DNA from: Cellulomonas fulva | GTDB lineage: Bacteria; Actinomycetota; Actinomycetes; Actinomycetales; Cellulomonadaceae | Length of the DNA: 64,000 bases | Reading direction: 5' to 3' | Assembly: GCF_018531375.1 (NCBI RefSeq) | Contig: NZ_JAHBOH010000001.1 | Coordinates: forward strand, 806,001 to 870,000 | Shown here: in pieces, positions 25,733 through 57,168 of the stretch | Layout of the letters: every line of letters starts with the position of its first letter | How positions within the stretch are numbered: position 1 is the stretch's first letter | The notes under the pieces: generated by a model | The model's input: only the letters and a program-made list of their open reading frames with translations | What the model was told of the DNA's origin: nothing | The model's database searches: none | Made by a program: the position numbers and the translations under genes

Positions 25733-25788
25733 CGAGAACGTCATCCCTCCGGTTCTGGGCGCTGAGAGCCGGAGCGATGACGTTCTCG
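25733..25788. repeat. Intergenic hairpin family, copy 1
   Basis: Arms of 24 nt (25733-25756 and 25765-25788) around an 8-nt loop, with one mismatch and one G-U pair. The core GAGAACGTCAT...ATGACGTTCTC is identical in three places in the window. It lies 142 bp after EF-G2 and 92 bp before the GH113 start, with no U-tract. Confidence 0.85.
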
Positions 25789-25880
25789 GCGGGTGGGGGG
25801 GTGGTCGGGGCGCGGGCGGGTCCGGGGGACTTTGTTCGGGGGGTGAAGATTGTGGGAGCATCCCGGGGGAGGTGGGGCAC

Positions 25881-26840
25881 ATGGGTGTGCGTCCGGAGCT
25901 GTCGGGGTTCGTGGCCGGGATGACGTGGGGGTGGACCGGGGTCCGGGGCACCTGGACCGACGAGGCCGCGGCGGAGTCGATGCGCCTCATGGTCGAGCGG
26001 ACCGCGACCACCTGGACGGCGGTGACGTTCGCCGCGCTGCAGGACACCGCGCACTCGACCACCGTGCGCTGGCGTGACGCTCCCACCGTCACCGAGGACG
26101 AGGTCCGGCACGCCATCCGCGCCGCCCGCGCGCTCGGCCAGCGCGTGCTCCTCAAGCCCGTGGTCAACTGCGCGGACGGCACCTGGCGCGCGCACATCAA
26201 CTTCTTCGACCACGACGTGCCGTGCGAGCCGACGTGGTCGGACTGGTTCGCGTCGTACGGCGAGTTCGTCGTGCACTACGCGCGCGTCGCGGCCGAGGAG
26301 GGCTGCGAGATGTTCTCGGTCGGCTGCGAGATGGTCCAGACGGACCGCCGCGCCGACGAGTGGCGCGCGCTCGTCGCGGCGGTGCGCGAGGTCTACCCCG
26401 GCCTGGTCACCTACAACTGCGACAAGTACCAGGAGGACCGCGTCACCTGGTGGGACGCGGTCGACGTCATCTCCTCCTCGGGCTACTACCCCCTGGGCGA
26501 CTGGGAGAACCAGCTCGACCGCATCGAGCCCGTGGTCGCGGCGCACGGCAAGCCGTTCGTCTTCCTCGAGGCGGGCTGCCCGAGCCGCAGCGGCTCGCCC
26601 GCCCTGCCGAACGACTGGGCGCTCCCCGGCGAGCCGGACGGCGAGGCCCAGGCGACCTGGTACCGCGAGATGTTCGCGACGTGCGCCGCCCGCGCGTGGG
26701 TCCGGGGGTTCGTCCTGTGGGACTGGCCCGCGCACCTGTACGACGAGCAGGACGCGCCGACCGACGACGACTACTGCCCGTTCGGCAAGCCGGCGGAGCA
26801 CGTCATCGCGCACCACTACCGCGCCGCCACGCCCTCCTGA
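25881..26840 (+). CDS. Glycoside hydrolase family 113-type beta-mannanase/mannosidase
   Basis: A 319-residue TIM-barrel glycosidase without a signal peptide, so probably intracellular, acting on imported manno-oligosaccharides. The acid/base is predicted at E150 (SVGCEM) and the nucleophile at E230 (FVFLEAGCPSR), close to the positions known for GH113 enzymes. GMTWGWTGVRG near the N-terminus and RGFVLWDWPAHLY near the C-terminus also fit. ATG 25881 follows GGGGGAGG. It stands alone between two copies of the hairpin family; no mannan transporter is nearby. Exact substrate is inferred from family. Confidence 0.82.
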   Translation: MGVRPELSGFVAGMTWGWTGVRGTWTDEAAAESMRLMVERTATTWTAVTFAALQDTAHSTTVRWRDAPTVTEDEVRHAIRAARALGQRVLLKPVVNCADGTWRAHINFFDHDVPCEPTWSDWFASYGEFVVHYARVAAEEGCEMFSVGCEMVQTDRRADEWRALVAAVREVYPGLVTYNCDKYQEDRVTWWDAVDVISSSGYYPLGDWENQLDRIEPVVAAHGKPFVFLEAGCPSRSGSPALPNDWALPGEPDGEAQATWYREMFATCAARAWVRGFVLWDWPAHLYDEQDAPTDDDYCPFGKPAEHVIAHHYRAATPS

Positions 26841-26867
26841 CGCGGCGCACACCGCTGCCCCTTCCGT

Positions 26868-26923
26868 CGAGAACGTCATCGCTCCGGCTCTGAGGGATCA
26901 GAGCCGGAGCGATGACGTTCTCG
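26868..26923. repeat. Intergenic hairpin family, copy 2 (perfect 26-bp stem)
   Basis: Arms at 26868-26893 and 26898-26923 pair over all 26 positions around the tetraloop GGGA. The core GAGAACGTCAT/ATGACGTTCTC is shared with the other two copies. It lies between the convergent ends of the GH113 gene and the ABC permease gene. Confidence 0.9.
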
Positions 26924-26957
26924 GCGGGGGTGGGGGCCGGGCCTCAGGCAGGCGCGG

Positions 26958-29528
26958 TCACTCGCTCGCGATCGCGTCCAGGGCGCGCATGCGGGCGGCG
27001 CGGGTCGCGGGCCACAGTGCGGCCAGCACCCCCACGACGAGCGCCAGCACCACCATCGTGAGCAGGCCGCCCCACGGGACGACGAGCTGGTCCAGCCCCT
27101 CGTCGGCGTAGACGAGCGGCAGGACCGACGCCAGGCTCACGCCCACCACCAGCCCGACGAGCGTGCCGAACAGCGCGGTGAGCACGGACTCGACCGTGAT
27201 GGTGCCGGCGAGCTGGAGCCGGCCCAGGCCGACGGCCCGCAGCAGCCCGATCTCGCGGGTGCGCTCGATCACCGACAGCGCGAGCGTGTTGACGATGCCC
27301 AGCACCGCGATGACCAGCGACAGGCCCAGCAGCGCGTAGAGGATCACGAGCAGCTGGTCGACCTGGCCGGCCATCTGGTCCACGAACTCGTCGCGGTCCT
27401 GCACCGACACCACGACGTACGGGGCGACCGCCGCGGTGACGGCGGCGCGCAGCTCGGCCTGGCTCACGCCCGGCGCCGCGTCGACGAAGATCGTGTCGAT
27501 GCTCTGCGCCTCGCCCGGCGCGAGCTCGTCGAGCACGGCCGGGGTGACGACCGCGCTGGACCCCAGCACCCGGCTGTCGAACAGCCCGGCGACCTCCAGG
27601 TCCCGCGAGCCGGCCGCCGTCGTGAGCGTCACCGTGTCGCCCACGGCCCACCCGTCGCCGACGAGGTTCGTGTTGAGCAGCGTCGTCCCGTCGGCCAGGT
27701 CCGCGGTGTCGCCCGCGGTCACGTCGACCGTCAGCACCGTGCCGAACGCGTCCGCGTCCATCGCGACCACGCCGGCCGCGTCCTGCGGCGTCGGCGCGAC
27801 GCCCGACGAGGGCGACATGCCCGCGTAGGTGAACGCGAGGGGCACCACGTCGCCGGCCTCCGGGAGCGCCGCGACGTCCTGCGCCGCGCCCTGCGGGACG
27901 ACGTAGGTGGCCGAGCGGACGACGAGGTCGGCGTCCGTCGAGCTCTCGACGACGTCCTTGAGCGACGCCTGCGCGGTGGTCGCGATCACGGACACGGCGC
28001 CGACGAGCGCCATGCCGATCATCAGCGCGCCGGCCGTGTTGGCCGTCCGGCGCGGGTTGCGCACGACGTTGCCCTGCGCGAGCCGGCCGACCGGGCGCAG
28101 CAGCGCGACGAACGGTGCGGCCATGGCCCGCATCGCCCACCGGGCGAGCGTCGGCGACGCGACGAGCACGCCGACGAGCACGAGCGCGGCGCCGGCCCCG
28201 AGCAGGCCGTCGGCCGCCGCGGAGTCCGGCCGCAGCGCCGCGGCGGCGACGCCGGCGGCACCCGCGGCGACGACCGCGCCGCCCAGCACGCCGCGCAGCC
28301 GCAGCGACCGCTCCTTGACCGTGACCTCGCCCCGCATGGCCTCGACCGGCGCGACCAGCGCCGCGGTGCGGGCGGGGAACGCGGACGCGACCGCGGACAC
28401 CACGGTGCCCAGGACCAGGCACCCGACGACGGTGCTGGTGCTCAGCGGGATGTCCGCCGTCAGCTCCATCCCGACGCCCGCGAGCGCCACCCGCAGCAGC
28501 GAGACCAGGCCGAGGCCGCCGAGGACGCCGAGGACGGACCCGACCAGCCCGACCACCGCCGCCTGCCCGACGACGACGCCGAACACCTGCGCCGGCGACG
28601 CGCCGAGCGCCCGCAGCAGCGCGAACTCCCGCACCCGCTGGCGCACCGACATCGCGAACGTGTTGGCGATGATGAACGCGCCGACGAACAGCGCGATCAG
28701 GGCGAAGATCAGCAGGAACGTCGTGACGAACCCGAGCATCTCGTCGATGTCCGACTGCATCGAGGCACGCAGCTCCGAGCCCGTGACCGCCTGCGCGTCG
28801 GCGCCGTCCGGGAGCCCGGTCAGCGCGTCGTCGAGACGCTGGGTCAGCGCGGCCTCGTCGACGCCGGGCTCGCCGTAGACGGCGACCGTCGCGACCGTGC
28901 CGTCGGGCGCGTACGCGTCGGCCGCGGCCTGCGGGTCGAGGAGCACGATCGTCGCGCCCGCCATGGGGCCGCCCGCGGTGACCTCACCGACCACGGTGAC
29001 GGGCCGGACGTCGCCGGCGATCACCACGCGCGTCTCGTCGCCCAGCGCGAGGCCGGAGGACGCGAGCGTCGCCTGCTCGAGCGCGACCTCGTCGGGACCC
29101 GACGGCGTCCGGCCCGCGACGAGCTCGAGGCTCGGGTCCCGCTCGTCGTACCCGAGGCCGAAGGACGGGGCCTGCGTGGACTGCACGGCGGTGCCGTCCG
29201 CGCCGACGAGCACGATCGAGCCCTGCACGTCCGGCAGCGCCAGCGCGACGCCGTCCACGGACGCGACGTCGTCGGCGAGCGTGAGCGGGACCGGGTTGCG
29301 CGCCTCGCCGACGCTGAACCCGTCGTCCCCGCCCGCGACCTGCGTGGCCCCGCGCAGGTACGCGTCGGCCGGCGCGGACGCCTCGACGATCCCGTCGAAC
29401 GTGCTGGACATCATGGTGCGCAGGCTGAACGTGCCCGCGACGAACGCGACGCCCAGCGCGACCGCCAGGACGGAGAGCAGGAAGCGGACGGCGTGCGCAC
29501 GCACGCCGCGGAGCGTGACGCGGAGCAT
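26958..29528 (-). CDS. ABC transporter permease, FtsX/MacB type (duplicated)
   Basis: An 856-residue permease with two FtsX-like units. An N-terminal helix (FLLSVLAVALGVAFVAGTFS) is followed by a ~230-residue outer domain and three helices (e.g. FLLIFALIALFVGAFIIANT). Two further helices lie mid-protein, then a second outer domain, with three more helices at the C-terminus (LLVILYALLGLSLVIAVLGI). This layout fits lipoprotein, peptide or antibiotic exporters. The ATG overlaps the stop of the ATPase gene by one base (TGATG), so the two form a coupled operon. Cargo cannot be inferred. Confidence 0.92.
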   Translation of the reverse strand: MLRVTLRGVRAHAVRFLLSVLAVALGVAFVAGTFSLRTMMSSTFDGIVEASAPADAYLRGATQVAGGDDGFSVGEARNPVPLTLADDVASVDGVALALPDVQGSIVLVGADGTAVQSTQAPSFGLGYDERDPSLELVAGRTPSGPDEVALEQATLASSGLALGDETRVVIAGDVRPVTVVGEVTAGGPMAGATIVLLDPQAAADAYAPDGTVATVAVYGEPGVDEAALTQRLDDALTGLPDGADAQAVTGSELRASMQSDIDEMLGFVTTFLLIFALIALFVGAFIIANTFAMSVRQRVREFALLRALGASPAQVFGVVVGQAAVVGLVGSVLGVLGGLGLVSLLRVALAGVGMELTADIPLSTSTVVGCLVLGTVVSAVASAFPARTAALVAPVEAMRGEVTVKERSLRLRGVLGGAVVAAGAAGVAAAALRPDSAAADGLLGAGAALVLVGVLVASPTLARWAMRAMAAPFVALLRPVGRLAQGNVVRNPRRTANTAGALMIGMALVGAVSVIATTAQASLKDVVESSTDADLVVRSATYVVPQGAAQDVAALPEAGDVVPLAFTYAGMSPSSGVAPTPQDAAGVVAMDADAFGTVLTVDVTAGDTADLADGTTLLNTNLVGDGWAVGDTVTLTTAAGSRDLEVAGLFDSRVLGSSAVVTPAVLDELAPGEAQSIDTIFVDAAPGVSQAELRAAVTAAVAPYVVVSVQDRDEFVDQMAGQVDQLLVILYALLGLSLVIAVLGIVNTLALSVIERTREIGLLRAVGLGRLQLAGTITVESVLTALFGTLVGLVVGVSLASVLPLVYADEGLDQLVVPWGGLLTMVVLALVVGVLAALWPATRAARMRALDAIASE

Positions 29529-30346
29529 CACCGCACCCCGGCGGGCGCGACGCCGGACGGCGCGACGGGCGTCGCCGCGGACTCGGCACGACGCGTGAGG
29601 GCGCCCAGGCGCTCGAGCACCGACTCGGCCGTGGGCTCGCGCAGCTCGTCGACGATCCTGCCGTCCGCCAGGAACAGGACGCGGTCGGCGTAGGAGGCTG
29701 CGGTCGGGTCGTGCGTGACCATGACGACGGACTGCCCGAGCTCGTCGACGCTGCGGCGCAGGAACCCGAGCACGTCGCGGGCCGAGGTCGAGTCGAGGTT
29801 GCCGGTCGGCTCGTCGGCGAACACGACGGCGGGCCGGGTGACCAGCGCCCGCGCGCAGGCGACGCGCTGCTGCTGACCGCCGGACAGCTCGCCGGGCTTG
29901 TGGCTCAGGCGGTCCTGCAGACCCACCGCGCGCACCACCGCGTCGAGGTGGTCGCGGTCGACCGGGCGCCGCGCGATGTCGAGCGGCAGCGTGATGTTCT
30001 CGAGCGCGGTCAGGGTCGGGACCAGGTTGAAGGCCTGGAAGACGAAGCCGAGCTGGTCGCGGCGGAGCCGGGTGAGCCGACGCTCGGACATCGCGGAGAC
30101 GGTCTGGCCGTCGACCTCGACCGTGCCGCCGGTCGGCCGGTCGAGGCCGGCCATGCAGTGCATGAGGGTCGACTTGCCGGAGCCGGACGGGCCCATGGTC
30201 GCGGTCAGTCGTCCGCGCTCGAAGTCCACGTCGATGCCCGCGAGGGCGTGGACCGCGGTGTCGCCGCGGCCGTAGGTCTTGACGAGCCCGCGCGCGGAGG
30301 CGATGACGTCGGGCGTGGGCGGGAGCGGGGCGGGTGCCGTGTTCAC
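29528..30346 (-). CDS. ABC transporter ATP-binding protein (LolD/MacB type)
   Basis: A 272-residue ATPase that powers the downstream FtsX-type permease. Walker A is GPSGSGKST, the signature LSGGQQQRVACARAL and Walker B VVFADEPTGNLDS; the Q-loop is FVFQAFNLVP and the H-loop VMVTHDPTAASYAD. A short disordered C-terminal tail (~30 residues) follows the usual end. The ATG at 30346 has no strong Shine-Dalgarno sequence. It diverges from the TsaC gene across 165 bp. Neither a two-component system nor a regulator gene adjoins the operon. Confidence 0.93.
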   Translation of the reverse strand: MNTAPAPLPPTPDVIASARGLVKTYGRGDTAVHALAGIDVDFERGRLTATMGPSGSGKSTLMHCMAGLDRPTGGTVEVDGQTVSAMSERRLTRLRRDQLGFVFQAFNLVPTLTALENITLPLDIARRPVDRDHLDAVVRAVGLQDRLSHKPGELSGGQQQRVACARALVTRPAVVFADEPTGNLDSTSARDVLGFLRRSVDELGQSVVMVTHDPTAASYADRVLFLADGRIVDELREPTAESVLERLGALTRRAESAATPVAPSGVAPAGVR

Positions 30347-30511
30347 GTGCTCGATCCTGCTCCCGCCCGGGAGCGGTGGCGATGGGGTTGTCCCCCGGGT
30401 CGACCCTGAACTTCTCCCAGGGACCTCTCAGGGTGCCGCTTGGGGGTCCTGACCTGGACAAACGTCCCGGTGCGGGTGCCCGTCGGGCTCGTCGGGCCTA
30501 CCCTGGCGAGC

Positions 30512-31132
30512 ATGGCCCGGTATCTCGACGTGCACCCGCAGGACCCCCAGCCGCGGCTCGTCGCGCAGGCGGTCGACGTGCTGCGCGGCGGCGGCGTCAT
30601 CGCCTACCCCACCGACTCCTGCTACGCGCTGGGCGCCTCGATGGGCTCGGCGGACGGAGCCGAGCGGATCCGCCGGCTGCGGCACCTGGACGACAAGCAC
30701 CACTTCACGCTCGTGTGCGCGGACTTCGCGCAGCTCGGCCAGCTGGTGCACCTCGACAACGCCGCGTTCCGCGCGATCAAGGCCGCGACGCCCGGCCCGT
30801 ACACGTTCATCCTGCAGGCGACACCCGAGGTGCCGCGGCGCCTCGCGCACGCCAAGAAGCGCTCGGTCGGGGTGCGGATCCCCGACCACCCGGTGGCGCT
30901 CGCGATCGTGCGCGAGCTCGGCGAGCCGATCCTGTCCTCCTCCCTGCTGATGCCCGGGCACGAGTGGCCGATGACCGAGGGCTGGCAGATCAAGGACGAG
31001 CTGGACCACGACCTCGACGCCGTCGTCGACGCGGGGGACTGCGGCACGACGCCGACCACCGTCGTCGACTGGACCTCCGGCGCCCCGGAGGTCGTGCGTG
31101 AGGGCGCCGGGGACCCCGACCGCTTCCGGTGA
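30512..31132 (+). CDS. L-threonylcarbamoyladenylate synthase (YrdC/Sua5 family)
   Basis: Makes threonylcarbamoyl-AMP for the t6A37 modification of ANN-decoding tRNAs. The 206 residues form a single YrdC domain, without the Sua5 C-terminal extension. Conserved elements are [50 protein letters not shown] and [13 protein letters not shown]. This sequence type matches the YciO-like branch of the family, where tRNA function is less certain. ATG 30512 is chosen since the domain begins there; the longer ORF adds unlikely residues. The stop overlaps the next start by 4 nt. Confidence 0.85.
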
Positions 31133-31878
31133 GCGCCCCGCTCGTCGTCCCGCCCGGGGACCCGGACGCCGCCGGTTCCCCCGCGCTCGCCGCGCTCGAC
31201 GCGGACGTCGTCGTGTGCCGCGCGTGCCCGCGCCTGGTGGCGTGGCGCGAGCAGGTGGGGCGCGAGCGCCGGGCCGCGTTCCGCGACGAGGAGTACTGGG
31301 CGCGCCCGGTGCCCGGGTTCGGCGACGCGGCCGCGCGCATCCTCGTCGTGGGCCTGGCGCCCGCGGCGCACGGCGCGAACCGGACCGGCCGCATGTTCAC
31401 GGGCGACCGCTCCGGCGACTTCCTGTTCGCCGCCATGCACCGTACGGGCCTGGCCAACCAGCCGACGTCGGTCCGGGCCGACGACGGCCTGCGCCTGACG
31501 GGCATCCGCGCGACCGCACCGGTCCGCTGCGCCCCGCCCGCCAACAAGCCGACGCCCGACGAGCGCCGCGCGTGCGCGCCGTTCCTGGCGCGCGAGCTCG
31601 CGGCGGTCGACCCCGTGGTGGCCGTGGTGCTCGGGGCGTTCGGCTGGGCCGCGCTGCTCGACACGCTCCGCGACCTCGGCTGGGCCGTGCCCCGGCCGTC
31701 TCCGCGGTTCGCCCACGGCGCGGAGGTCGTCGTCACCCGCGGCGCCGGCGACGACGAGCGTAGCCTGACGCTGCTCGGCTGCTTCCACGTGAGCCAGCAG
31801 AACACCTTCACGGGCCGGCTCACCCCCGCGATGCTCGACGCGGTCCTCCTGCGGGCCCGCGCCCTGGCGGACGTCTGA
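31129..31878 (+). CDS. Uracil-DNA glycosylase family 5 (UDGb type)
   Basis: A 249-residue iron-sulfur DNA repair enzyme that removes uracil and other deaminated bases. Motif [20 protein letters not shown], and motif [14 protein letters not shown], are diagnostic of family 5. The Ala in motif A in place of the usual acidic residue is normal for UDGb. Cysteines VCRAC, RCAPP, RRACAPF and GCFHV provide the 4Fe-4S ligands. The GTG start overlaps the TsaC-like stop (GTGA), so the two are translationally coupled. It is convergent with the FBP gene. Confidence 0.93.
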
Positions 31879-31902
31879 CCCCGCTCGGGGCCGGACGTCC
31901 GC
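31867..31902. terminator. Hairpin between convergent udg and FBP genes
   Basis: GCGGACGT (31867-31874) pairs with ACGTCCGC (31895-31902), and an inner CCCC/GGGG stem with loop GCTC continues it. It includes the udg stop codon and ends 9 nt before the FBP stop, so it can serve both directions. Confidence 0.6.
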
Positions 31903-31910
31903 CGGGCCGG

Positions 31911-32414
31911 TCACACGTCGCGCAGGACCTCGGCCAGGAAGCGGGCGGACCGCTCGCGCAGGCCCTCGATCCGGCGCGCGACCAGGGCGTGGCGCGCGTC
32001 CTCGTCGTTGCCCGCCTCGGTGCGCGTCGGCGGCCGGCGCACGTTGCTCGAGCACGTGAAGTGCGTGCACACGAGTGTGCCGACGGTGTTGCCGCGGCGC
32101 CCGGACGCACCGGCCCGGCGCGCCACGTAGAGGCTCACGTCCTCGGTCACGACGACGTCCTCGCACCACGCGCACACCGCGCGCCGGCGGATGCGCTCCT
32201 TGGCGTCCGTCGAGCGCAGGAGCACGCCGGTGGGGGTGCCGTCGAGGGGCACGATCGCGTACGCGACGAGCGGCGCCTTGCGGTCACGCCACCCGAGGTA
32301 GTCGAGGCGGTCCCAGTCCAGCGCGTCGAGGTCGGGCAGGACGGCGTTGGTCGCCTCGCGGCGGGACGCGTTCACGAAGGACGCGCGGATCTGCTTCTCG
32401 GTCAGGGGTTCCAT
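31911..32414 (-). CDS. FBP-domain protein (FusB-like EF-G-binding protein)
   Basis: A 167-residue protein of the FusB/FBP family, which bind elongation factor G on the ribosome and can release drug-stalled EF-G. An N-terminal helical domain (LTEKQIRASFVNASRREA) is followed by a C-terminal zinc-finger domain whose four Cys are visible as CAWC and CTHFTC (32050-32170 region). The ATG at 32414 gives the family N-terminus. An EF-G2 gene lies 6 kb away on the other strand, with no direct linkage. Actinobacterial homologues are annotated EF-G-binding but few are tested. Confidence 0.85.
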   Translation of the reverse strand: MEPLTEKQIRASFVNASRREATNAVLPDLDALDWDRLDYLGWRDRKAPLVAYAIVPLDGTPTGVLLRSTDAKERIRRRAVCAWCEDVVVTEDVSLYVARRAGASGRRGNTVGTLVCTHFTCSSNVRRPPTRTEAGNDEDARHALVARRIEGLRERSARFLAEVLRDV

Positions 32415-32894
32415 GGGTTCTCGGTCTTCCGGTCGGTGTCGACCTCCACCGCCACGGGACGACGAGGGCGCCGGGGCCGGTCGCGGCCCGGGGCGTGCTC
32501 GACCTCGCTGCACGGCGGGGAGCGGGCAGGGCGTCGGCCCCGCGTGACACGCCGGCTGGGCGCCGAGGACGGGTCAGGAGGGGTCGACGCGGAGGCGCGC
32601 GTCGCCTGAGCAGGCCGTGCCGGCCACCCCGCAACCTGCGATGCCGTGCATCCGCGTGCTCCTCGCCTGTCGTCCGGCCCTGTCGTACGGCTCTGTCGTC
32701 CGGCCCGTGCTCTCGCCCGTCCACCCGGTCGACGACGTGCTCGTCGTACCGGGGTCCGGACGTGCCGCTCGCTCGGCGGCCGCCGTCCATTGTGCCGCAC
32801 GCACCCGGGAGCACCGCGGTCGCGGCCCCGTGGACCGGCCCGTGGACCGGCCCGTGGACCCGCCCCGTGGACCACCAGGGGGTCGCCCCGTGGT
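32415..32894. other. Intergenic region with short tandem repeats (480 bp)
   Basis: No ORF here has convincing codon bias on either strand. Two short repeat clusters are visible: a 13-bp unit CCTGTCGTCCGGC three times at 32666-32704 with one or two changes, and a 12-bp unit CCCGTGGACCGG about 3.5 times at 32827-32873. The remainder would contain the promoter of the FBP gene, but no hexamers stand out. Confidence 0.6.
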
Positions 32895-33374
32895 CTAGCG
32901 CGGGCAGTGCCCCGGGAGCTCGTGACGCACCGAGTGCTCCAGGTGCGCGCGGATCCGGGCGTCGTCGAGCCAGCACGCCAGCGCGGGCACGTCCCGGGGC
33001 GCACGGGGCGCGTGGCCGGCGACGACGAGCGTCGGCCGCTCGAGCTGCACCGCGACCTCCTGCACGATCTCCTGGGTCCGCTCCAGGACCAGGCGTGCCC
33101 GCTCGTCGGGGTCGGGGTGCACGCGGGTCGCGGCGTCGTCGATCACCGACTCGGCCACGTGCGCCGCCTGCTCGCCGTCGAGGTCCTGCGCCAGCTCGCG
33201 CAGCCGCCGGCGCCGGAGCGCGAGCGCGAGCCGCGCGCTCACCCTCGCCGACGGCGGAGCCGCCTCGAGGCTGCGTCGTGCCCGGTCCACCTGCTCGGCG
33301 GCCTCGGCGTGCGTCACGGCCGCCGGGAGCCACTGCGCCACCGGCCTCCGCTGGGTCTGTGCCTGCGGGTTCAT
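32895..33374 (-). CDS. Hypothetical protein
   Basis: A 159-residue protein of unknown function, helical and charged. Notable stretches are [18 protein letters not shown] and [20 protein letters not shown], then a ~40-residue acidic/basic helix and a His-rich C-terminus. No signal peptide or membrane segment is seen. ATG at 33374 follows GAGGTGGTGACGAG. The ORF stays open 384 bp upstream, but that part overlaps the oppositely oriented F420 oxidoreductase gene and is a shadow. Confidence 0.5.
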
Positions 33375-33510
33375 CTCGTCACCACCTCGGTGCGGGTCGG
33401 CGTTGACCCGCACCGGCATCGTCGCGCACCGCCGCGGGCCGGAGGTGGGACCGAAGACCCTCGAGCCGGTCGCGGGAATGCCGCCCCGCCGCCCGGGCGT
33501 TGCCACCGGC

Positions 33511-33948: not shown

Positions 33949-33958
33949 GACCGCCCGC

Positions 33959-36947: not shown

Positions 36948-36951
36948 GGGC

Positions 36952-48370: not shown

Positions 48371-48373
48371 GCG

Positions 48374-49240: not shown

Positions 49241-49289
49241 CGCACCGTTCTACCCAGGTCCCCGGCCCGGCGCGCGCGCAGCGGCCGAC

Positions 49290-50108
49290 TCACGCGCGGC
49301 GCCGGAACAGCCGGGCGGCCACCAGCCGCGCCACCACGACCAGGCCGATGCACCACGCGAGCGCCGCGGCGAGCGCCCCGCCGTCCACCGGCGCGCCGAG
49401 GAGCAGGGCCCGCACGGAGTCCGCGACCGGGGTCACCGGGTTCCAGGTCGCGATGGCCTGGAGCACCGACGGCATGCTGTCGACCGGCACGAACGCGCTC
49501 GAGACGTACGGCAGGAACATGATCCCGAACGTGAACCCGTTCGCGGCCTCCGGACCCGACGCCGCGAGCCCGACCGCCACCGAGACCCACGTGATCGCCG
49601 CGATGTAGAGGGCGATGAGCGCCAGCGCCGCGAGCCAGCCGCCCAGCGACGCCCCCGCGTCGAAACCGACCAGCAGCGCGATCCCGATCACGAGCGCGGT
49701 CGCGACCGCGTTGCGCACCAGGCTCGCGACCACGTGGCCCGTGATCACGCCCGTGGCGCGCACGGGCATCGAGCGGAACCGGTCGGTGATGCCCGTGGCC
49801 GCGTCGGTCGCGACGTCGACGGCCGCGCTGGCGGCGCCGTACCCGGCGGCCAGGATGACGATGCCGGGCACGACGAAGTCCACGTAGTCCATGCCGGCCT
49901 CGATCGCGCCGCCGAAGACGTAGACGAACATCAGCAGCAGCATCACGGGGAGCATCACCGCGAGCAGGAGCGTGTCGACCTGGCGCAGCGAGCGGCGCAG
50001 GCACCGCGCGACGAACGCCCGGGTGTCCCGCAGCGGGCGCGGCGCGGGGGTGTCCGTGCGGGGGCTGAGGTCGAGCAGGGTGGGGCGGACGGCGTCCAGC
50101 GTGGTCAT
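49290..50108 (-). CDS. ABC-2 type transporter permease
   Basis: A 272-residue DrrB-like permease. Six hydrophobic helices are visible, starting TLLLAVMLPVMLLLMFVYVFGG and including VDFVVPGIVILAAGYGAAS, AVATALVIGIALLVG, ALALIALYIAAITWVSVAVGL, FTFGIMFLPYVSSAFVPV and the C-terminal ALAWCIGLVVVARLV. The loop containing the RFRSMPVRATGVITG motif is the family signature. ATG at 50108 overlaps the ATPase stop by 4 nt (ATGA). With the ATPase it forms a probable drug or lipid exporter controlled by the divergent TetR protein. Confidence 0.93.
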   Translation of the reverse strand: MTTLDAVRPTLLDLSPRTDTPAPRPLRDTRAFVARCLRRSLRQVDTLLLAVMLPVMLLLMFVYVFGGAIEAGMDYVDFVVPGIVILAAGYGAASAAVDVATDAATGITDRFRSMPVRATGVITGHVVASLVRNAVATALVIGIALLVGFDAGASLGGWLAALALIALYIAAITWVSVAVGLAASGPEAANGFTFGIMFLPYVSSAFVPVDSMPSVLQAIATWNPVTPVADSVRALLLGAPVDGGALAAALAWCIGLVVVARLVAARLFRRRA

Positions 50109-51142
50109 CGGGTCCTCCGGTCGGTGACGAGCTCGGCCGCGCGGGGGTCCGATGACCACGCGGGCTGGGCTGGGGTCGGGTGGGCAGGCGGGGCTGGGGT
50201 CGGGTGGGCGGGGTCGGCTGGGGTCGGGTGGGCACCCTCCTGGGAGTCCTCGTCCGACGAGTCCTGCGCGGGCCGGCCGGTGAGGGCCAGGAAGGCGTCG
50301 TCGAGCGTGGGCGTGCGGACCTGCCAGCTCGCGACCACGGGCCCGCCCCGCTCGAGGCGGCGCTCGACGTCCTCCAGCACGCGGCGCACGTCGCCGACGC
50401 TGCCGTCGGTCTCGAGGCGCTCACGCGTGCCGTCGGCCAGCACCAGCTCGACGTGCGCGCGCCCGACGCGCGCCTTGAGCTCGTCCGGCGTGCCGTGCGC
50501 GATGACGCGGCCCCGGTCGATCACCACGACGCGGTCGGCGAGGCGCTCGGCCTCCTCCAGGTACTGCGTGGTGAGCAGGACCGTGGTGCCCGCGTCGACC
50601 GCCGCCCGCGTGAGCGCCCAGACGTCGAGCCGGCTGCGGGGGTCGAGCCCCGTGGTCGGCTCGTCGAGCACCAGCACCTGCGGGCGGCCCACCAGGCTCG
50701 CGGCGATGTCGAGACGGCGCCGCATGCCGCCCGAGTACGTCGTGACGGGCCGGTCCGCGGCGTCCGTCAGGTCGAACGCCGCGAGCAGCGCGGCAGGCCG
50801 CGACTGCTCCTCGTCGGGCGGCAGGTGCGAGAGCCGGGCCATGAGGCGCAGGTTCTCCGTGCCGGTGAGCAGCTCGTCCACCGCCGCGAACTGCCCGGTG
50901 AGCGCGATGGCGGCACGGACGCGGTCGGGGTGGCGCAGCGCGTCGTGCCCCGCGACGTGCACGGTGCCTGCGTCGGGCCGCAGCAACGTCGACAGGATGC
51001 GGACGGTCGTGGTCTTGCCCGCCCCGTTCGGGCCCAGCAGCGCCACCACCTCGCCGCGGCCGACCTCGAGGTCCACCCCGTCGAGCACGGTCAGGTCGCC
51101 GTAGGACTTGCGCAGTCCCCGGACGACGATCGTCGGTTCCAT
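50105..51142 (-). CDS. ABC transporter ATP-binding protein (DrrA type)
   Basis: A 345-residue ATPase for the coupled ABC-2 permease. Walker A is GPNGAGKTTT, signature YSGGMRRRLDIA, Walker B VLVLDEPTTGLD and H-loop LLTTQYLEEAERLADR. These match daunorubicin-resistance DrrA-like exporters. The C-terminus carries three 8-residue repeats (AHPTPADP, AHPTPAPP, AHPTPAQP) unlike the core family. ATG 51142 is selected because the domain begins there (MEPTIVV); a longer ORF runs across the operators. It is first in its operon. Confidence 0.93.
   Translation of the reverse strand: MEPTIVVRGLRKSYGDLTVLDGVDLEVGRGEVVALLGPNGAGKTTTVRILSTLLRPDAGTVHVAGHDALRHPDRVRAAIALTGQFAAVDELLTGTENLRLMARLSHLPPDEEQSRPAALLAAFDLTDAADRPVTTYSGGMRRRLDIAASLVGRPQVLVLDEPTTGLDPRSRLDVWALTRAAVDAGTTVLLTTQYLEEAERLADRVVVIDRGRVIAHGTPDELKARVGRAHVELVLADGTRERLETDGSVGDVRRVLEDVERRLERGGPVVASWQVRTPTLDDAFLALTGRPAQDSSDEDSQEGAHPTPADPAHPTPAPPAHPTPAQPAWSSDPRAAELVTDRRTR
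50170..50233. repeat. 24-bp tandem repeat inside the ABC ATPase gene
   Basis: The block CTGGGGTCGGGTGGGC recurs at 50170, 50194 and 50218, a period of exactly 24 bp. It keeps the reading frame and encodes the three 8-residue Pro/Thr/His repeats at the ATPase C-terminus. Copy-number change would alter the tail without breaking the gene. Confidence 0.85.
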
Positions 51143-51156
51143 GTCATCCCCGTTCT

Positions 51157-51171
51157 GTGTACGTCGTAAAC
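51157..51171. promoter_or_regulatory. TetR-family operator 1 (degenerate dyad)
   Basis: GTGTACGTCGTAAAC differs from the core of operator 2 (GTGTATGTCATACAC) at 3 of 15 positions and keeps most of the dyad. Its centre (51164) is 20 bp from the centre of operator 2. It lies 14 bp before the ABC ATPase start codon. Confidence 0.65.
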
Positions 51172-51174
51172 TGT

Positions 51175-51193
51175 GTGTGTATGTCATACACAC
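51175..51193. promoter_or_regulatory. TetR-family operator 2 (perfect 19-bp palindrome)
   Basis: GTGTGTATGTCATACACAC is a perfect palindrome about a central T at 51184. It is immediately followed by TTATAGG, a candidate -10 for the rightward TetR gene, so a bound repressor would block its own promoter and the divergent ABC promoter together. Confidence 0.8.
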
Positions 51194-51227
51194 TTATAGG
51201 ATCGGCAGTCAAGAGAGGTGGTGCGAC

Positions 51228-52427
51228 GTGACCGAGGAGACGGGGACGCCCGACGAGGACGGACGGCGCGAGGCGCAGACCCTGCGGCGGGACCGCGAGC
51301 GGGACGAGCGCGCGGTCGCCAAGGAGCTCGAGCGGGCGCGACGCGACGAGGAGAAGGCGGCGGACCAGCGCCGCAAGGACGAGGACCGCGCCCGCCGGGA
51401 CGCGGAGCGCCGCGAGCAGACCGAGGTGCGGACGCGCGAGCAGGCCGAGCGGGACGCGCAGCGGGCCGCCGAGCAGGCTCGTCGGGAACGCGAGCGCGCG
51501 GCTCAGGACGCGGCCAAGGAGGCGGGCCGCGCGCTCCGCGAGGCCGCCAAGGCCGAGCGCGCGGCAGCGCTGGCCCAGCTCCGCGCCACGCGGGAGGCCG
51601 CGCGGGCCCGCCGCGAGGCCGAGCGGGCGGACGAGGGCACGGACGGGGGTGCCGACGGCGACCGTGCCGCGCGCTCGTCGGACCGCCTGCGCGACCTCCC
51701 CCCGGACATCGCGGTGCTGTGGCGGGAGCCGGCCCCGCCGCGGCGCGGCCCGCGCCCGGGGCTGAGCCTGGACCAGATCGCCGACGCCGCGATCGCGCTC
51801 GCCGACACCGAGGGGCTCGACGCCGTGTCGATGGCGCGCGTGGCCGAGTCGCTCGGCTTCACGACGATGTCGCTCTACCGGTACGTGACCTCCAAGGACG
51901 AGCTGCTCATGCTCATGTCCGACCGCGTCGCTGACCGCCCGCCGCGGGTCGGGCGGGAGGTGGGCGACTGGCGCGCGCGCCTCGAGCTGCTGCTCGAGCT
52001 CACGCAGCCGATCCTCGCCGCCCACCCCTGGATGAGCCGCACGACGACGCTGCTGTTCGCGGTCGGCCCGAACCGGCTGGCGTGGATGGAGGCGATGGTC
52101 GCGGCCCTCGAGGACACGCCGCTGGACGAGGCGACCAAGCTCCAGGCGGTCGGCGCGCTGAGCGGCCACCAGCTCGAGTGGGCACGACTCATGGACGCCG
52201 AGGGCACGCGGCAGCGGGCCGTCGCGGCCGCGCAGGGCCGGGACGGGTCCGACGAGGACTGGCACGACTCGGTGATCGCGCGCCTGGTCGACCCCGCCGA
52301 GCACCCCGCGATGGCGCGCGCGGTGGCGGGCGGCGCCCTGGACCCCGCGAACCAGCCCGTGGCGGGGCTCGACCTGGGCACCCGCCTGATCCTCGACGGC
52401 CTGGCCACCCTCATCGCCCGCACCTGA
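51228..52427 (+). CDS. TetR/AcrR-family regulator with a long charged N-terminal extension
   Basis: A 399-residue repressor, about twice the usual ~200. Residues ~1-150 are almost entirely Arg/Glu/Ala/Asp/Lys (e.g. RDEEKAADQRRKDEDRARRD) and should form one long helix or coiled coil. The TetR HTH comes late (~179-225: LSLDQIADAAIALADTEGLD then SLGFTTMSLYRYVTSKDEL), followed by a TetR_C-type ligand domain. The GTG start follows AAGAGAGGTGG and is well placed, so the extension is not a start-site artefact. It diverges from the ABC-2 exporter over two operators and probably represses both. Confidence 0.92.
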   Translation: MTEETGTPDEDGRREAQTLRRDRERDERAVAKELERARRDEEKAADQRRKDEDRARRDAERREQTEVRTREQAERDAQRAAEQARRERERAAQDAAKEAGRALREAAKAERAAALAQLRATREAARARREAERADEGTDGGADGDRAARSSDRLRDLPPDIAVLWREPAPPRRGPRPGLSLDQIADAAIALADTEGLDAVSMARVAESLGFTTMSLYRYVTSKDELLMLMSDRVADRPPRVGREVGDWRARLELLLELTQPILAAHPWMSRTTTLLFAVGPNRLAWMEAMVAALEDTPLDEATKLQAVGALSGHQLEWARLMDAEGTRQRAVAAAQGRDGSDEDWHDSVIARLVDPAEHPAMARAVAGGALDPANQPVAGLDLGTRLILDGLATLIART

Positions 52428-52503
52428 CCCCGGCACGGGGTGGGGTCGGGTCGGTGTGCACAGGGGTCGTCCACGTGTCGGCGGGGGCGGGCAGACTGCC
52501 GTC

Positions 52504-53163
52504 ATGGACCTGGGGACGGACGACGCGAGCGCACCCGGCGAGCCGGCACGGCCGGTGCCGGGCCGGCGGTGCTTCGGGGACGGCGACCCGCTCTACGAGC
52601 GGTACCACGACGACGAGTGGGGCCACCCGGTGCACGGCGAGGAGGCGCTGTTCGAGCGCCTGGCCCTCGAGGGCTTCCAGTCCGGCCTCGCCTGGATCAC
52701 GGTCCTGCGCAAGCGCGAGGCCTTCCGCGCGGCCTTCGCGGGGTTCGACCCGGCGGTGGTCGCGACGTACGACGAGCGGGACGTCGAGCGGCTGCTGCAG
52801 GACGCGGGGATCGTGCGGAACCGGCAGAAGATCGAGGCCACCGTCGCGAACGCACGAGCCCTGCTCGCGCTGCACGCGTCCGGCCGCTCGCTCGACGCGC
52901 TGTTCTGGTCGTTCGCCCCGGACCGCACCCAGCACACGCGCCCGCAGACCTGGTCGGACGTGCCGGCGACCACCCCGGAGTCCAAGGCGCTGGCTCGCGA
53001 GCTGAAGTCGCTCGGGTTCCGGTTCGTCGGCCCGACCACGGCGTACGCGGCCATGCAGGCCTGCGGTCTGGTCGACGACCACCTGGCCGGCTGCCCGGTG
53101 GTCGGGGCAACGGCTGTGCTCCCCTCGGGTGATCTGGAGGTCGCGATCTCGGCAGACGGGTGA
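52504..53163 (+). CDS. tag: DNA-3-methyladenine glycosylase I (Tag)
   Basis: A 219-residue repair enzyme that removes 3-methyladenine from DNA. The zinc site of the family is complete: C23 in RRCFGDGD, H35 in YERYHDDEWG, H193 and C197 in VDDHLAGC. ALEGFQSGLAWITVLRKREAFRAAF holds the catalytic Glu of this family in its first residues (FERLALEGFQ), and FRFVGPTTAYAAMQACG is the conserved C-terminal block. ATG 52504 is chosen. No alkylation-response regulator lies adjacent. Confidence 0.94.
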   Translation: MDLGTDDASAPGEPARPVPGRRCFGDGDPLYERYHDDEWGHPVHGEEALFERLALEGFQSGLAWITVLRKREAFRAAFAGFDPAVVATYDERDVERLLQDAGIVRNRQKIEATVANARALLALHASGRSLDALFWSFAPDRTQHTRPQTWSDVPATTPESKALARELKSLGFRFVGPTTAYAAMQACGLVDDHLAGCPVVGATAVLPSGDLEVAISADG

Positions 53164-53184
53164 ACGGGGGTTACAGTTCCGCGC

Positions 53185-53370
53185 ATGACCGAGATGCCCG
53201 ACGCCGACGGCCGGCTCGACGCCGTCCGCGGCGCCCAGGAGGCGCTCGGCGACACCACCCCGCCCGACGCGCGGGTGCTGCAGGCGGTCGAGGCCGGACT
53301 GCTCTCCGGTCTCGGCGCGAGCTCGAGCTGGGTCGACGTCCCGCACCAGCGCCCCCGCCTCACGTCCTGA
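53185..53370 (+). CDS. Small hypothetical protein
   Basis: A 61-residue ORF beginning MTEMPDADGRLDAV, acidic and with no recognisable domain. It lies 21 bp after the Tag gene on the same strand and has G/C third-position bias like neighbours, but no clear ribosome binding site. It could be a small protein or a chance ORF. Confidence 0.4.
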   Translation: MTEMPDADGRLDAVRGAQEALGDTTPPDARVLQAVEAGLLSGLGASSSWVDVPHQRPRLTS

Positions 53371-53468
53371 CGGCGACGGCGCCGCCCGTCCGCGGGACGG
53401 GTCGCCGACGTCTCGCAGGGTGAGAAGCCCTGCCCACCATGTGGTCCGGCGGCTTACGATCGCGGTCA

Positions 53469-53560
53469 ACCATCCAGAGCGGCCGAGAGACCTGGCTCGT
53501 CGACGTCGCAGCAACCCCCCTCCGCGACGAGGGAGTGGGTGCTTCCGCCAGGATCGATGG
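53469..53560 (+). promoter_or_regulatory. SAM riboswitch (S-box type)
   Basis: Conserved blocks appear in the expected order: P1 5' strand CCATC with AGAGCGGC..GAGAGACCTGGC, then CAGCAACCC, GGGTGCTTCC and the P1 closing GATCGATGG. CCATC (53470-53474) pairs with GATGG (53556-53560). The switch sits 43 nt before the metF start. A 6-bp hairpin CAGACC/GGTCTG (53575-53589) lies between them and may take part in translation control, since no terminator is visible. Class assignment (SAM-I rather than SAM-IV) is by eye. Confidence 0.85.
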
Positions 53561-53603
53561 AGTGGACGATGTCGCAGACCCTCGGTCTGAACAGGTCGCG
53601 CGC

Positions 53604-54620
53604 GTGAGCGCCGCGACGGTGGAACCGCCCGTGGCCCCCGCGCCGCGGGCGCAGGACGCGCACGCCGGCACCGGTGTGCACGTGGCCCCGGCGGCGCGAC
53701 CGCTGGGCTCGGTGGACCGGCCGACGATCTCGTTCGAGCTGTTCCCCCCGCGCAACCCGCAGGCCGCGCCCCGCCTCTGGGAGACGGTCCGGCAGCTCGA
53801 GTCGGTGCACCCGGACTTCGTCTCGGTCACCTACGGCGCGGCCGGCAAGACGCGCGAGACCTCACGGGCCTTCGTGTCCCGCCTCCTGCAGGAGACGTCG
53901 CTGTCCCCCATCGCGCACCTGACCTGCGTGGGCACCAGCCGGGCGGAGATCACGGCGATCGTCGAGGAGTTCCTCGACGAGGGCGTGCGGTCCTTCCTGG
54001 CGCTGCGCGGCGACCCGCCCGCGGGCGAGCCGGACTGGCGACCGCACCCCGAAGGCGTCGAGACCGCGAGCGCGCTCGTCGAGCTGCTCCGGGAGATCGA
54101 GGCGCGCCGCTGCGTGGCGAGCCCCTCGCAGGCGGTGCGGGCGCGCGTGCGGCCGCTGTCGGTGTCCGTCGCGGCCTTCCCGCGCGGCAACGCGGCGACC
54201 GGCGGGACCCGGGCGCAGGACGTCGCGTCGCTGCTCGCGAAGCAGGACGCGGGTGCCGACTTCGCGATCACCCAGGTGTTCTACGACGCCGAGGCGTACC
54301 TGGGCCTGGTGGCCGAGGCGCGCGAGGCGGGCGTGGTCATCCCGATCATCCCGGGCATCATCCCGACCACCGACCCCGCCCGGCTGCTGCGCGTGCAGGA
54401 GCTGACGGGCGTCCCCGTGCCGCGTGACCTGCTCGACCACCTGGGCGCGGCCGACGACGAGCTGGACCGGCACCGCCGGGGCATCCGAGCCGGCGTGGAC
54501 CTGATCAACGGGATCCTGGACGGCGGCGCGCCCGGCGTCCACGTCTACACGTACAACAAGCACGAGGCCGCGCTCGACCTGCTCGAGGGCGCCCGGCTGG
54601 ACGGCAAGCAGCGCGACTGA
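53604..54620 (+). CDS. metF: Methylenetetrahydrofolate reductase
   Basis: Reduces 5,10-methylene-THF to 5-methyl-THF, the methyl donor for methionine synthesis; FAD-dependent, cytoplasmic. The 338 residues contain ISFELFPPRNPQAAPRLWET with the catalytic Glu, FVSVTYGAAGKTRETS, PIAHLTCVG, FLALRGDPPAGEPDW and ADFAITQVFYDAEAYL, then IPIIPGIIPTTD. GTG 53604 is chosen because every earlier in-frame codon lies in the SAM riboswitch. The first ~40 residues (Ala/Pro-rich) are longer than in most MetF proteins, so a later start is possible. Confidence 0.93.
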   Translation: MSAATVEPPVAPAPRAQDAHAGTGVHVAPAARPLGSVDRPTISFELFPPRNPQAAPRLWETVRQLESVHPDFVSVTYGAAGKTRETSRAFVSRLLQETSLSPIAHLTCVGTSRAEITAIVEEFLDEGVRSFLALRGDPPAGEPDWRPHPEGVETASALVELLREIEARRCVASPSQAVRARVRPLSVSVAAFPRGNAATGGTRAQDVASLLAKQDAGADFAITQVFYDAEAYLGLVAEAREAGVVIPIIPGIIPTTDPARLLRVQELTGVPVPRDLLDHLGAADDELDRHRRGIRAGVDLINGILDGGAPGVHVYTYNKHEAALDLLEGARLDGKQRD

Positions 54621-54693
54621 CCGCGTCGCCGCCGGCACCCGCACCACGGCAACCCGACCACAGCACCACCACGACACCGAAGGCTGGACCCTG

Positions 54694-57024
54694 ATGAGCG
54701 AGACCCCGCAGTTCCCGACCGGCTCCGTGCTCGGCTACCCGCGCATCGGGCCGCGCCGCGAGCTCAAGAAGGCCATCGAGGCGTTCTGGGCCGGCCGGTC
54801 GACGGCCGACGAGGTCGAGGCGACGGCCGCCGAGCTGCGTCGTCGGACCCGCACGCGCCTGGCCGAGCTGGGCCTGCCCACGGACGTGCCCGCGATCCCG
54901 AGCGCGTTCTCCTTCTACGACCACGTGCTCGACGCGACCGCCGTCGTCGGCGCGATCCCGGCGCGGTTCGCCGACCTGGTCGGCGAGGACGGAAGCCTGG
55001 ACCTGGCCGGCTACTCGACCGTCGCGCGCGGTCGCGGCGACGACCTGCCGCTCGAGATGACCAAGTGGTTCGACACCAACTACCACTACCTGGTCCCCGA
55101 GATCGGCCCGGAGACGGAGTTCCGCTACGTCGGCACGCGCCCGGTCGCGGAGTTCGTCGAGGCGCTGGCCGACGGCGTCGTGACGCGGCCCGTGCTCGTC
55201 GGGCCGGTGACGTACCTGGCGCTCGCGAAGGCGACCGAGGGCGCGCCGGACGACTTCTCCCCGATCGACCGCCTGCCCGACCTGCTGCCCGTGTACGCGG
55301 ACCTGCTCCGCGACCTCGCCGCCGCCGGCGCCACGTGGGTCCAGCTCGAGGAGCCGGCCCTGGTCTCGGAGAGCATCGACGTGCCCGTCGAGCGCCTGCT
55401 CGCCGCGACCGTCGAGGCGTACCGCGCGCTCGCGACGGAGCTGGCGCGTCCGCAGCGCCCGGCGATCCTCGTCGCGGCGCCGTACGGCGACCTGGGCGCG
55501 GCGCTGCCGGTGCTCGCCGCCACCGACGTCGAGGCGATCGGCCTGGACCTCGTCAAGGGCGAGACCCCGACCGAGGCCGTCCCCGGCCTCGAGACCAAGA
55601 CCCTGGTCGCGGGCGTGATCGACGGCCACAACATCTGGCGCGCGGACCTGGACGCCAAGCTCCAGGTGCTGGAGCAGCTCGAGGTGCTCGGCGCGGCCGC
55701 CGTCACGGTCGGCACGTCGACGTCGCTGTTCCACGTCCCGCACGACACGGCCGACGAGCCGAACCTCGACCCGACCCTCACGACCTGGCTCGCGTTCGCC
55801 GACCAGAAGGTCGCCGAGGTGGTCACGCTCGCCGAGGGCCTGTCCGAGGGCCGCGAGGCGATCCACGAGCAGCTGCTCGAGGCGTCGGACGCGGTCGCGT
55901 CGCGCCGCGGCGCGCCGGGCGTGGTGCGGCCCGAGGTCCGCGAGCGCACGGCCGGCCTGACCGAGGACGCGTTCAACCGCGGCCCGTTCGACGAGCGCAA
56001 GGACGCCCAGGCCGCGCGCCTCGACCTCCCGCCGCTGCCGACCACGACGATCGGCTCGTTCCCCCAGACGCCGGAGATCCGCAAGGCCCGCGCCGCGCAC
56101 GGCAAGGGCGAGCTGACCGACGAGCAGTACACCGACGAGATGAAGGCGGAGATCCGCCGCGTCGTCGAGCTGCAGGAGCGGATCGGCCTGGACGTGCTGG
56201 TGCACGGCGAGCCCGAGCGCAACGACATGGTGCAGTACTTCGCCGAGAACCTGGACGGCTTCGCGGTCACCGAGAACGGCTGGGTGCAGTCCTACGGCTC
56301 GCGCTGCACGCGCCCGTCGATCCTGTGGGGCGACGTCTCGCGGCCGAAGCCGATCACGGTCGACTGGACCACGTACACGCAGTCGCTCACGAGCAAGCCG
56401 GTCAAGGGCATGCTCACCGGCCCGGTCACGATCCTGGCCTGGAGCTTCGTGCGCGACGACCAGCCGCTGCGGGAGACCGCGAACCAGGTGGGCCTGGCGC
56501 TGCGCGACGAGATCGCCGACCTCGAGGCCGCCGGCATCGCCGTGATCCAGGTCGACGAGCCCGCCCTGCGCGAGCTCCTGCCGCTGCGGGAGAAGGACCA
56601 CGCCGACTACCTCGACTGGTCGGTGCGCTCCTTCCGCCTCTCGACGGCCGGCGTGCGCCCGGACACCCAGATCCACACGCACCTGTGCTACTCGGAGTTC
56701 GGCCAGATCATGGGCGCGATCGACGGCCTCGACGCCGACGTGACCTCGATCGAGGCGGCCCGCTCCAAGATGGAGATCGTCGAGGACATCGCCGCAGCGG
56801 GCTACCCGCGCGCCGTCGGCCCCGGCGTCTACGACATCCACTCCCCGCGCGTCCCCTCCGTCGAGGAGATGACGGACCTGCTCGCCGGGGCGGTCAAGGC
56901 CATCGCCGTCGACCAGCTCTGGGTCAACCCCGACTGCGGCCTCAAGACGCGCCGCTACGAGGAGACGACGGCGAGCCTGGAGCACATGCTCCGCGCCACA
57001 GAAGCGGTCCGCACCACCCTCTGA
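54694..57024 (+). CDS. metE: Cobalamin-independent methionine synthase
   Basis: Transfers the methyl of methyl-THF triglutamate to homocysteine, making methionine without B12. The 776 residues form two TIM barrels, N-terminal (starting SVLGYPRIGPRRELKKAIEAFW in parts: GYPRIG and RELKKA) and C-terminal (TTTIGSFPQTPEIRKAR). Zinc ligands are the His and Cys of IHTHLCYSEF and the Cys of VNPDCGLKTR. ATG 54694 follows GAAGG. It lies 73 bp after metF and probably shares the SAM-controlled transcript, so both enzymes fall when SAM is high. Confidence 0.95.
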   Translation: MSETPQFPTGSVLGYPRIGPRRELKKAIEAFWAGRSTADEVEATAAELRRRTRTRLAELGLPTDVPAIPSAFSFYDHVLDATAVVGAIPARFADLVGEDGSLDLAGYSTVARGRGDDLPLEMTKWFDTNYHYLVPEIGPETEFRYVGTRPVAEFVEALADGVVTRPVLVGPVTYLALAKATEGAPDDFSPIDRLPDLLPVYADLLRDLAAAGATWVQLEEPALVSESIDVPVERLLAATVEAYRALATELARPQRPAILVAAPYGDLGAALPVLAATDVEAIGLDLVKGETPTEAVPGLETKTLVAGVIDGHNIWRADLDAKLQVLEQLEVLGAAAVTVGTSTSLFHVPHDTADEPNLDPTLTTWLAFADQKVAEVVTLAEGLSEGREAIHEQLLEASDAVASRRGAPGVVRPEVRERTAGLTEDAFNRGPFDERKDAQAARLDLPPLPTTTIGSFPQTPEIRKARAAHGKGELTDEQYTDEMKAEIRRVVELQERIGLDVLVHGEPERNDMVQYFAENLDGFAVTENGWVQSYGSRCTRPSILWGDVSRPKPITVDWTTYTQSLTSKPVKGMLTGPVTILAWSFVRDDQPLRETANQVGLALRDEIADLEAAGIAVIQVDEPALRELLPLREKDHADYLDWSVRSFRLSTAGVRPDTQIHTHLCYSEFGQIMGAIDGLDADVTSIEAARSKMEIVEDIAAAGYPRAVGPGVYDIHSPRVPSVEEMTDLLAGAVKAIAVDQLWVNPDCGLKTRRYEETTASLEHMLRATEAVRTTL

Positions 57025-57104
57025 CCCCACCTACCCCTCCCTCCCCACCCCTCCCTGGCCTCCCCACCCACCCCTCCCTCCCCACCCCACCCACCCCCCA
57101 CCTA
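57025..57104. repeat. C-rich tract after metE
   Basis: Eighty bases of nearly pure C with scattered A/T (TCCCCACC-type units) separate the metE stop from the hairpin at 57105. G is almost absent. The same order, gene end then C tract then hairpin of this family, occurs after EF-G2. Confidence 0.8.
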
Positions 57105-57168
57105 CCGCCGAGAACGTCATATCTCCGGCTTTGGCGGAGCAGAGCCGGAGATATGACGTTCTCGGCGG
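57105..57168. repeat. Intergenic hairpin family, copy 3
   Basis: Arms of 29 nt (57105-57133 and 57140-57168) with one G-U pair around a 6-nt loop. The core GAGAACGTCAT...ATGACGTTCTC is as in copies 1 and 2; the two pairs after CAT are AT/AT here but CG/CG in copy 2, i.e. paired changes. It lies 80 bp after metE and 64 bp before the aminotransferase start. Confidence 0.9.

Follow-up and report, generated by a model that had tools for sequence, protein, structure and literature searches.

Three palindromes in the window and their family

The window considered here is a stretch of 64,000 nucleotides from the genome of Cellulomonas fulva (G000, 3.74 Mb; other G-numbers denote genomes of the genus, and C1 marks coordinates on the G000 contig). 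It contains three intergenic palindromes, each exactly 54 nt long and running from GAGAAC to GTTCTC (Table 1). They are members of a dispersed family, and copies of this family bracket a gene elsewhere in the genome that encodes a predicted fusion of an AbiEi-type DNA-binding part and a nuclease-like domain. An earlier note, made from the letters of the window, had pointed out three long hairpins, and all three lie where it placed them, now with closer bounds. Their fold energies are -80.8, -81.8 and -72.3 kcal/mol for elements 1, 2 and 3, with z-scores of -10.9, -11.0 and -10.1 (200 shuffles each, none folding equally well), and in most copies of the family the pairing extends outward beyond the 54 nt into CCGCC/GGCGG. 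The sequence bears out the double change from CG to AT that the note reported for both arms when copy 2 is compared with copy 3. The stem lengths that it gave (24, 26 and 29 nt) vary with the way in which mismatches are counted. As it had also stated, no T-run follows any of the three hairpins; none was seen behind the own-genome copies inspected, which leaves them without a canonical U-tract. At the gathering score, no Rfam family matches the window hairpins.

Table 1. Palindromes of the window and the genes and gaps around them (positions count from the first letter of the window).
Feature	Position	Strand	Remark
Family element 1, 54-nt palindrome	25734..25787	.	in the gap from EF-G2 to GH113
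Family element 2, 54-nt palindrome	26869..26922	.	in the gap where the GH113 and FtsX-type genes converge
Family element 3, 54-nt palindrome	57110..57163	.	behind metE
Intergenic region of element 1	25592..25880	.	left flank C-rich, right flank G-rich
Intergenic region of element 3	57025..57232	.	left flank C-rich, right flank G-rich
Gene upstream of element 1, EF-G2 (earlier note's name)	23438..25591	+	gene caller
GH113 gene	25881..26840	+	lies between elements 1 and 2
FtsX/MacB-type permease gene	26958..29528	-	convergent to GH113
Gene upstream of element 3	54694..57024	+	metE (earlier note's name)

The exact arms GAGAACGTCAT...ATGACGTTCTC occur three times in the G000 genome, every time inside the window. 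A looser pattern, combined with a covariance model (R1, built from seven copies; 150 of 2534 candidates scored), gives 34 places in the genome at E<=1, which excludes the case that only these three copies exist. A covariance-model scan of the genome and its relatives was what the earlier note had proposed, and it also finds copies in four of the six close relatives of G000. Thirty-one of the 34 places align over 70 columns without a gap; the copy at C1:1072628 is one base longer, and C1:1681578 and C1:169110 are other hairpins. Weak model matches inside genes (L083 3099, L066 4047, L072 608) were likewise left out of the alignment, as was the only match that R1 adds in the window beyond the three hairpins, a weak one at 2148-2218. 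The latter is a hairpin whose arms read CGAGATCGTCAG; the called genes on its two sides converge (1644-2159 on the + strand, 2224-6933 on the - strand), and it is similar to the hairpin at C1:169110 (L076); the two possibly represent another palindrome family.

Pairing is better kept in the 31 copies than chance would give: the paired share of cells is 84.8%, compared to 77.7% in shuffles, and two-sided changes are found in 83 cells, against 40+-6 (none of 500 shuffles as high). Over the 12 variable columns of 26 single copies, pairing reaches 0.811, compared to 0.593 when shuffled. Thus the earlier claim that structure is conserved, and not only sequence, stands for the G000 copies. It falls for the copies of G030 and G076, which keep the arm motif, often lie in tandem and have arms that vary independently. 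In these three genomes, the distance between neighbouring copies is exactly 72 nt in 19 of 29 cases, and the spacer measures exactly 18 nt in 19 of 29. Length, spacing and arm motif are the constant features of the family, and the close pairing of single copies in G000 may be due to selection or to template-switch repair. A protein-binding palindrome, one of the options in the earlier note, is now our preferred account of the fixed length. We also considered pairing between neighbouring tandem copies rather than within copies, and no test of it exceeded the shuffles. On the + strand of the G000 copies, G-T opposites outnumber A-C opposites (34 vs 17, summed) irrespective of gene direction, an excess possibly tied to the direction of replication.

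A second model (R2, from 79 hand-picked copies, two of them from G019) was run over 81 genomes of the genus. It gives strand-hits at E<=0.01 in 19 of them and none in 62, including the close relatives G020 and G008. G000, G030 and G076 have at least 62 strand-hits each, followed by G019 (58), G048 (21), G031 (16), G028 (7) and G050 (6), and 11 further genomes have one or two each. Several family sites are common to G030 and G076. The gap between a gene that we read from its sequence as malate-synthase-like (aceB) and an SDR gene holds one copy of the genome's own type in G000 and four copies of the G030 type in G030; the flanking proteins of the two genomes are 89% and 80% identical. The family thus probably predates these species and changed in concert inside each genome. 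The dispersed copies in G000 and its relatives support the suggestion of a lineage-specific repeat resembling the repetitive extragenic palindromes (REPs).

The outer stem reaches beyond the genus. The pattern GAGAACGNCAT...ATGNCGTTCTC (gap 28-36), searched in one genome per species, gives 40 stretches, 27 of them in Antribacter, Isoptericola, Myceligenerans and Cellulomonas. These 27 are 54 or 55 nt long only, and 3 of them lie inside a called gene; across the four genera the outer stem (GAGAACGNCAT) is the same, and the inner stem differs while mostly remaining palindromic. We read the other 13, from unrelated phyla, as coding or chance matches.

A gene bracketed by palindromes

Arrays of two and three family copies bracket a gene at C1:1121062-1122012, one copy overlapping the 3' end of the gene. 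Two other genes that lie between family copies, ThiF/rhodanese and GH113, are ordinary. The GH113 gene is at the same place in G000 and G020, and is missing in G031, G019, G076, G030 and G008, where EF-G2 adjoins the FtsX-type gene. Between EF-G2 and GH113, G020 has an extra 551-aa frame (L224/L225), which we take to be similar to an actinobacterial DUF222/HNH protein.

The N-terminus of the bracketed protein is of the AbiEi_4 type. The protein also matches, weakly and below the cutoff, REase_MTES_1575, which PMC3710099 describes as a Vsr-type nuclease. The predicted fold of its residues 206-313 matches the whole catalytic domain of the homing endonuclease I-Bth0305I (PDB 3r3p) at 10% identity, and this fused nuclease-like domain has invariant acidic residues. 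Searched by sequence, the PDB gives one weak match, AbiGI (E 0.98); among defence-system models the AbiEi models alone match the protein, and a plasmid search for homologues gave no match. No toxin gene (AbiEii) stands beside the gene in G000 or beside its orthologues in G076, G041, G024 and G020, all of which adjoin the same CtaG/CopD and S9-peptidase genes. In G019 and G002 the gene adjoins the peptidase gene, and its other side is unmatched.

The bracketing recurs in other genomes. Family copies enclose orthologues of 64% identity in G076 (two plus six copies) and in G019 (one plus two weak copies on one side, and one on the other). In Antribacter gilvus, at a locus found through the hairpin pattern and not through the protein, two 55-nt hairpins enclose a homologue (49% identical to P0008) whose frame reaches 13 nt into the second. 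For a broader comparison we used 18 homologues from a protein search in 14 genomes, which were picked partly for their hairpin matches. At a score of 37, 13 of the 18 have a repeat common to both 500-nt flanks. Of the controls whose gaps measure at least 80 nt, 7 of 68 reach this score (Fisher 4.7e-7), and of all 188 controls 12 do. The contrast is conservative, because among the controls are the target gene and loci that were chosen for holding the family. The five homologues with no common flank repeat are G041, G024, G002, G000b and G049, the last three having a strong palindrome on one side.

These common repeats are mostly palindromes and differ between homologues. The flank palindrome of the G000c homologue recurs at C1:440635; judged by eye, the one that flanks G000b is similar to the C1:1681578 hairpin. 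In a 400-kb sample, the flank palindrome of a homologue in G041 turns up three more times between genes, once as a weak hairpin, and 22 further matches of the loose pattern lie in genes. Two single loci may be added: a GAGAACGGGCCGG... hairpin follows, at a distance of about 450 nt, a gene that is 38% identical to the nuclease homologue P0077 (L013, C1:1863461), and in G044 (L273) an R2 match lies where a gene with 51% identity to the homologue P0039 ends, the called frame of that gene reaching into the hairpin.

G020, the closest relative by metE (95%), is without the family, and its nuclease gene is in two pieces. The broken gene, which was left out of the 18 homologues and has a flank score of 57, is bracketed by two plus four copies of a palindrome of its own, CGCCGAMCTGG...CCAGKTCGGCGG (variants included). 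The core of this palindrome has 9 exact matches in G020 and none in the other 80 genomes, and its outer CGCCGA/TCGGCG is common to the G000 family. Two of the private palindromes lie behind metE, in the slot that the window family occupies in G000. Since the private palindrome of G020 sits at both the nuclease locus and the metE end, the palindrome type appears to change jointly at the nuclease locus and at gene ends.

The palindromes could instead be operators in the regulon of the AbiEi-like protein, through which it would regulate itself and other genes while nothing is moved or copied. AbiEi and Rv2827c do autoregulate via 23-bp inverted repeats in their promoters, according to PMC7319586. 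However, divergent regions, the only ones restricted to promoters, number just 3 of 27, copies also occur downstream of the nuclease gene and in tandem arrays, and the protein carries a fused nuclease-like domain with invariant acidic residues. We consider this account very improbable.

Palindromes at gene ends

The 27 family intergenic regions comprise 9 convergent, 15 co-directional and 3 divergent ones, compared to 10, 38 and 20 of 68 controls. Of the family regions, 24 of 27 thus contain a gene 3' end; 48 of the 68 controls do so too (p 0.07), which makes this a tendency only. Where measured, the left flanks are all C-rich and the right flanks G-rich but one, irrespective of gene direction, while the controls have no average skew.

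Loci of relatives (30 per search; 2 of 29 relatives unreadable in each) were compared at two of the window sites. Behind metE, a strong hairpin (score >=35 within 260 nt) occurs in 26 of 27 readable relatives, unrelated in sequence by eye; behind EF-G2 this is so in 7 of 27. The sole Rfam match in the window, a SAM riboswitch (RF00162, 46.2 bits; 53467-53563, + strand), lies upstream of 53604-54620, the gene before metE. A second strong hairpin (score >=30) is found in none of 24 family regions, compared to 14 of 48 controls. The evidence for a family hairpin replacing another local hairpin is weak, because a random 70-nt mask alone cuts the control figure to 12% (of 29 controls).

Taken by position, these results suggest a role at transcript ends. 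The terminator or mRNA 3'-end element of the earlier note remains plausible on this ground, and the strand test for RNA pairing lent it nothing: G-U versus A-C opposites on the transcript strand number 57 vs 42 (p 0.16). It is conceivable, although rather unlikely in our view, that the elements are plain U-less intrinsic terminators of a GC-rich actinobacterium, perhaps bidirectional and multiplied by duplication, and that the nuclease is unrelated. The tendency towards gene 3' ends and the hairpins behind metE in nearly every readable relative would fit, and U-less terminators have been claimed for Streptomyces and mycobacteria (PMC8355165). Yet plain terminators need neither conserved arm sequences nor an exact length of 54 nt, and they do not predict that one gene family is bracketed by its own palindrome in several genomes.

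A proposed mechanism and related systems

We propose, with a probability of roughly 0.55, that the elements are dispersed REP-like 54-nt palindromes that are likely bound, and spread or kept uniform, by the predicted AbiEi-type/homing-endonuclease fusion, and that they probably remain at gene 3' ends because there, as hairpins, they would terminate or protect messages. The family itself, its fixed length and spacing, the bracketing of the nuclease gene and the different palindromes at one locus are observed. The AbiEi-like part would bind the palindrome, each 23-nt arm serving as one binding site; the homing-type nuclease part would nick or cut near the element, and repair would then copy or homogenise the palindrome. 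Such binding, cutting and copying would account for private families, concerted change and tandem arrays. Judging by position, copies would survive mainly behind genes, where they may take the place of a local hairpin and end or protect transcripts. It is tempting to go further, if only tentatively, and to imagine an undescribed actinobacterial palindrome-homing system: the AbiEi-type domain would read paired 23-bp arms, the fused domain would cut, and repair would copy the palindrome to gene ends as a local terminator. Enzyme and palindrome would then coevolve, each species swapping in private hairpins at the same gene ends, for example that of metE.

Several results weigh against the proposal. 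No covariation is seen in 60 of the 64 elements of G030 and G076 (64 two-sided cells vs 91.7 shuffled, a count that 500 of 500 shuffles reach). Although copies are numerous in G030, no element lies in its CtaG-S9 gap of 886 nt, and the gene found there is a different one; G031 has nuclease homologues of 32-37% only. G024 and G041, conversely, have close homologues with no common flank repeat. No insertion scar was seen; at the three window sites, which lack the family in six relatives, the gaps are too diverged to align. Loss of the nuclease gene after spread, as a candidate event, would explain the G030 and G031 pattern. The different gene in the G030 gap lies at L300:17266-17904 and presumably encodes an Abi/HEPN-type protein.

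The many copies that G030 retains with no nuclease gene could also point to orphan palindromes, homogenised by ordinary recombination and template-switch repair, with the nuclease locus merely in an array-rich spot. Template-switch mutation at quasipalindromes is described, and the aceB-SDR copies, one in G000 and four in G030, carry their own genome's type. This account has to contend with bracketing across a protein family, with different palindromes for different homologues, and with bracketing in another genus as well; we think it quite improbable. The interpretation in the earlier note is partly supported; in place of its alternatives, a REP-like repeat or a terminator, our preferred reading is now a palindrome family with a specific and testable enzyme candidate.

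REP repeats are known to have the RAYT transposase as their enzyme. If our proposal is true, the AbiEi/homing-endonuclease fusion would be a candidate enzyme of another class for orphan palindromes. Some U-less actinobacterial hairpins would be recast as an invading or domesticated repeat, and proteins named 'AbiEi family antitoxin domain-containing', 'endonuclease domain-containing' or 'DUF559' would gain a testable role. In the open-access literature searched, AbiEi- or DUF559-type proteins are not linked to dispersed palindromes; the fusion as palindrome partner gene would be the new point.

Among known systems, I-Bth0305I resembles the fusion in the predicted fold of residues 206-313 across its whole domain, whereas the identity is 10%, the DNA-binding part differs and homing would be a putative function here. 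The AbiEi and Rv2827c antitoxins (type IV AbiE) share the N-terminal DNA-binding part, by sequence and predicted fold, and bind paired 23-bp inverted repeats; unlike them, the present protein has a C-terminal nuclease-like domain and no adjoining toxin gene in the five genomes named above. U-less actinobacterial terminators are likewise strong GC-rich hairpins behind genes with no U-tract, but here the sequence is repeated, the length is exact and related genomes have the same arms.

The closest comparison is with REP/BIME/REPIN palindromes and their RAYT (TnpA-REP) enzymes. As in those systems, short intergenic, species-private palindromes lie mostly behind genes, singly or in arrays, and bracket a dedicated enzyme gene; in this wide sense the likeness holds in G000, G076, G019 and A. 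gilvus, and not for G024 and G041. Tagged REP palindromes are 20-40 bp long (PMC3733652), compared to 54 nt here, in about 30 copies. The bracketed gene is here an AbiEi-type/endonuclease fusion. Mobilisation by a RAYT, which the earlier note had raised, found no backing: the Y1 transposase family PF01797 has no match in G000 and matches in 1 of 81 genus genomes (G052), while controls match in 5 of 14 genomes. The ends of the 31 aligned copies are paired, by eye (GAG/GAC...CTC/GTC in most), and neither GTAG nor CGTC forms a constant unpaired tag there. CGTC-tagged REPs (PMC3733652) are also palindrome families between co-directional and convergent genes, with no RAYT and apparently no dedicated enzyme; there CGTC is an unpaired end tag, whereas here, where present, it lies inside the stem. 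The family therefore stands outside the tagged REP/RAYT class in size, tag and enzyme, and it likely works alike.

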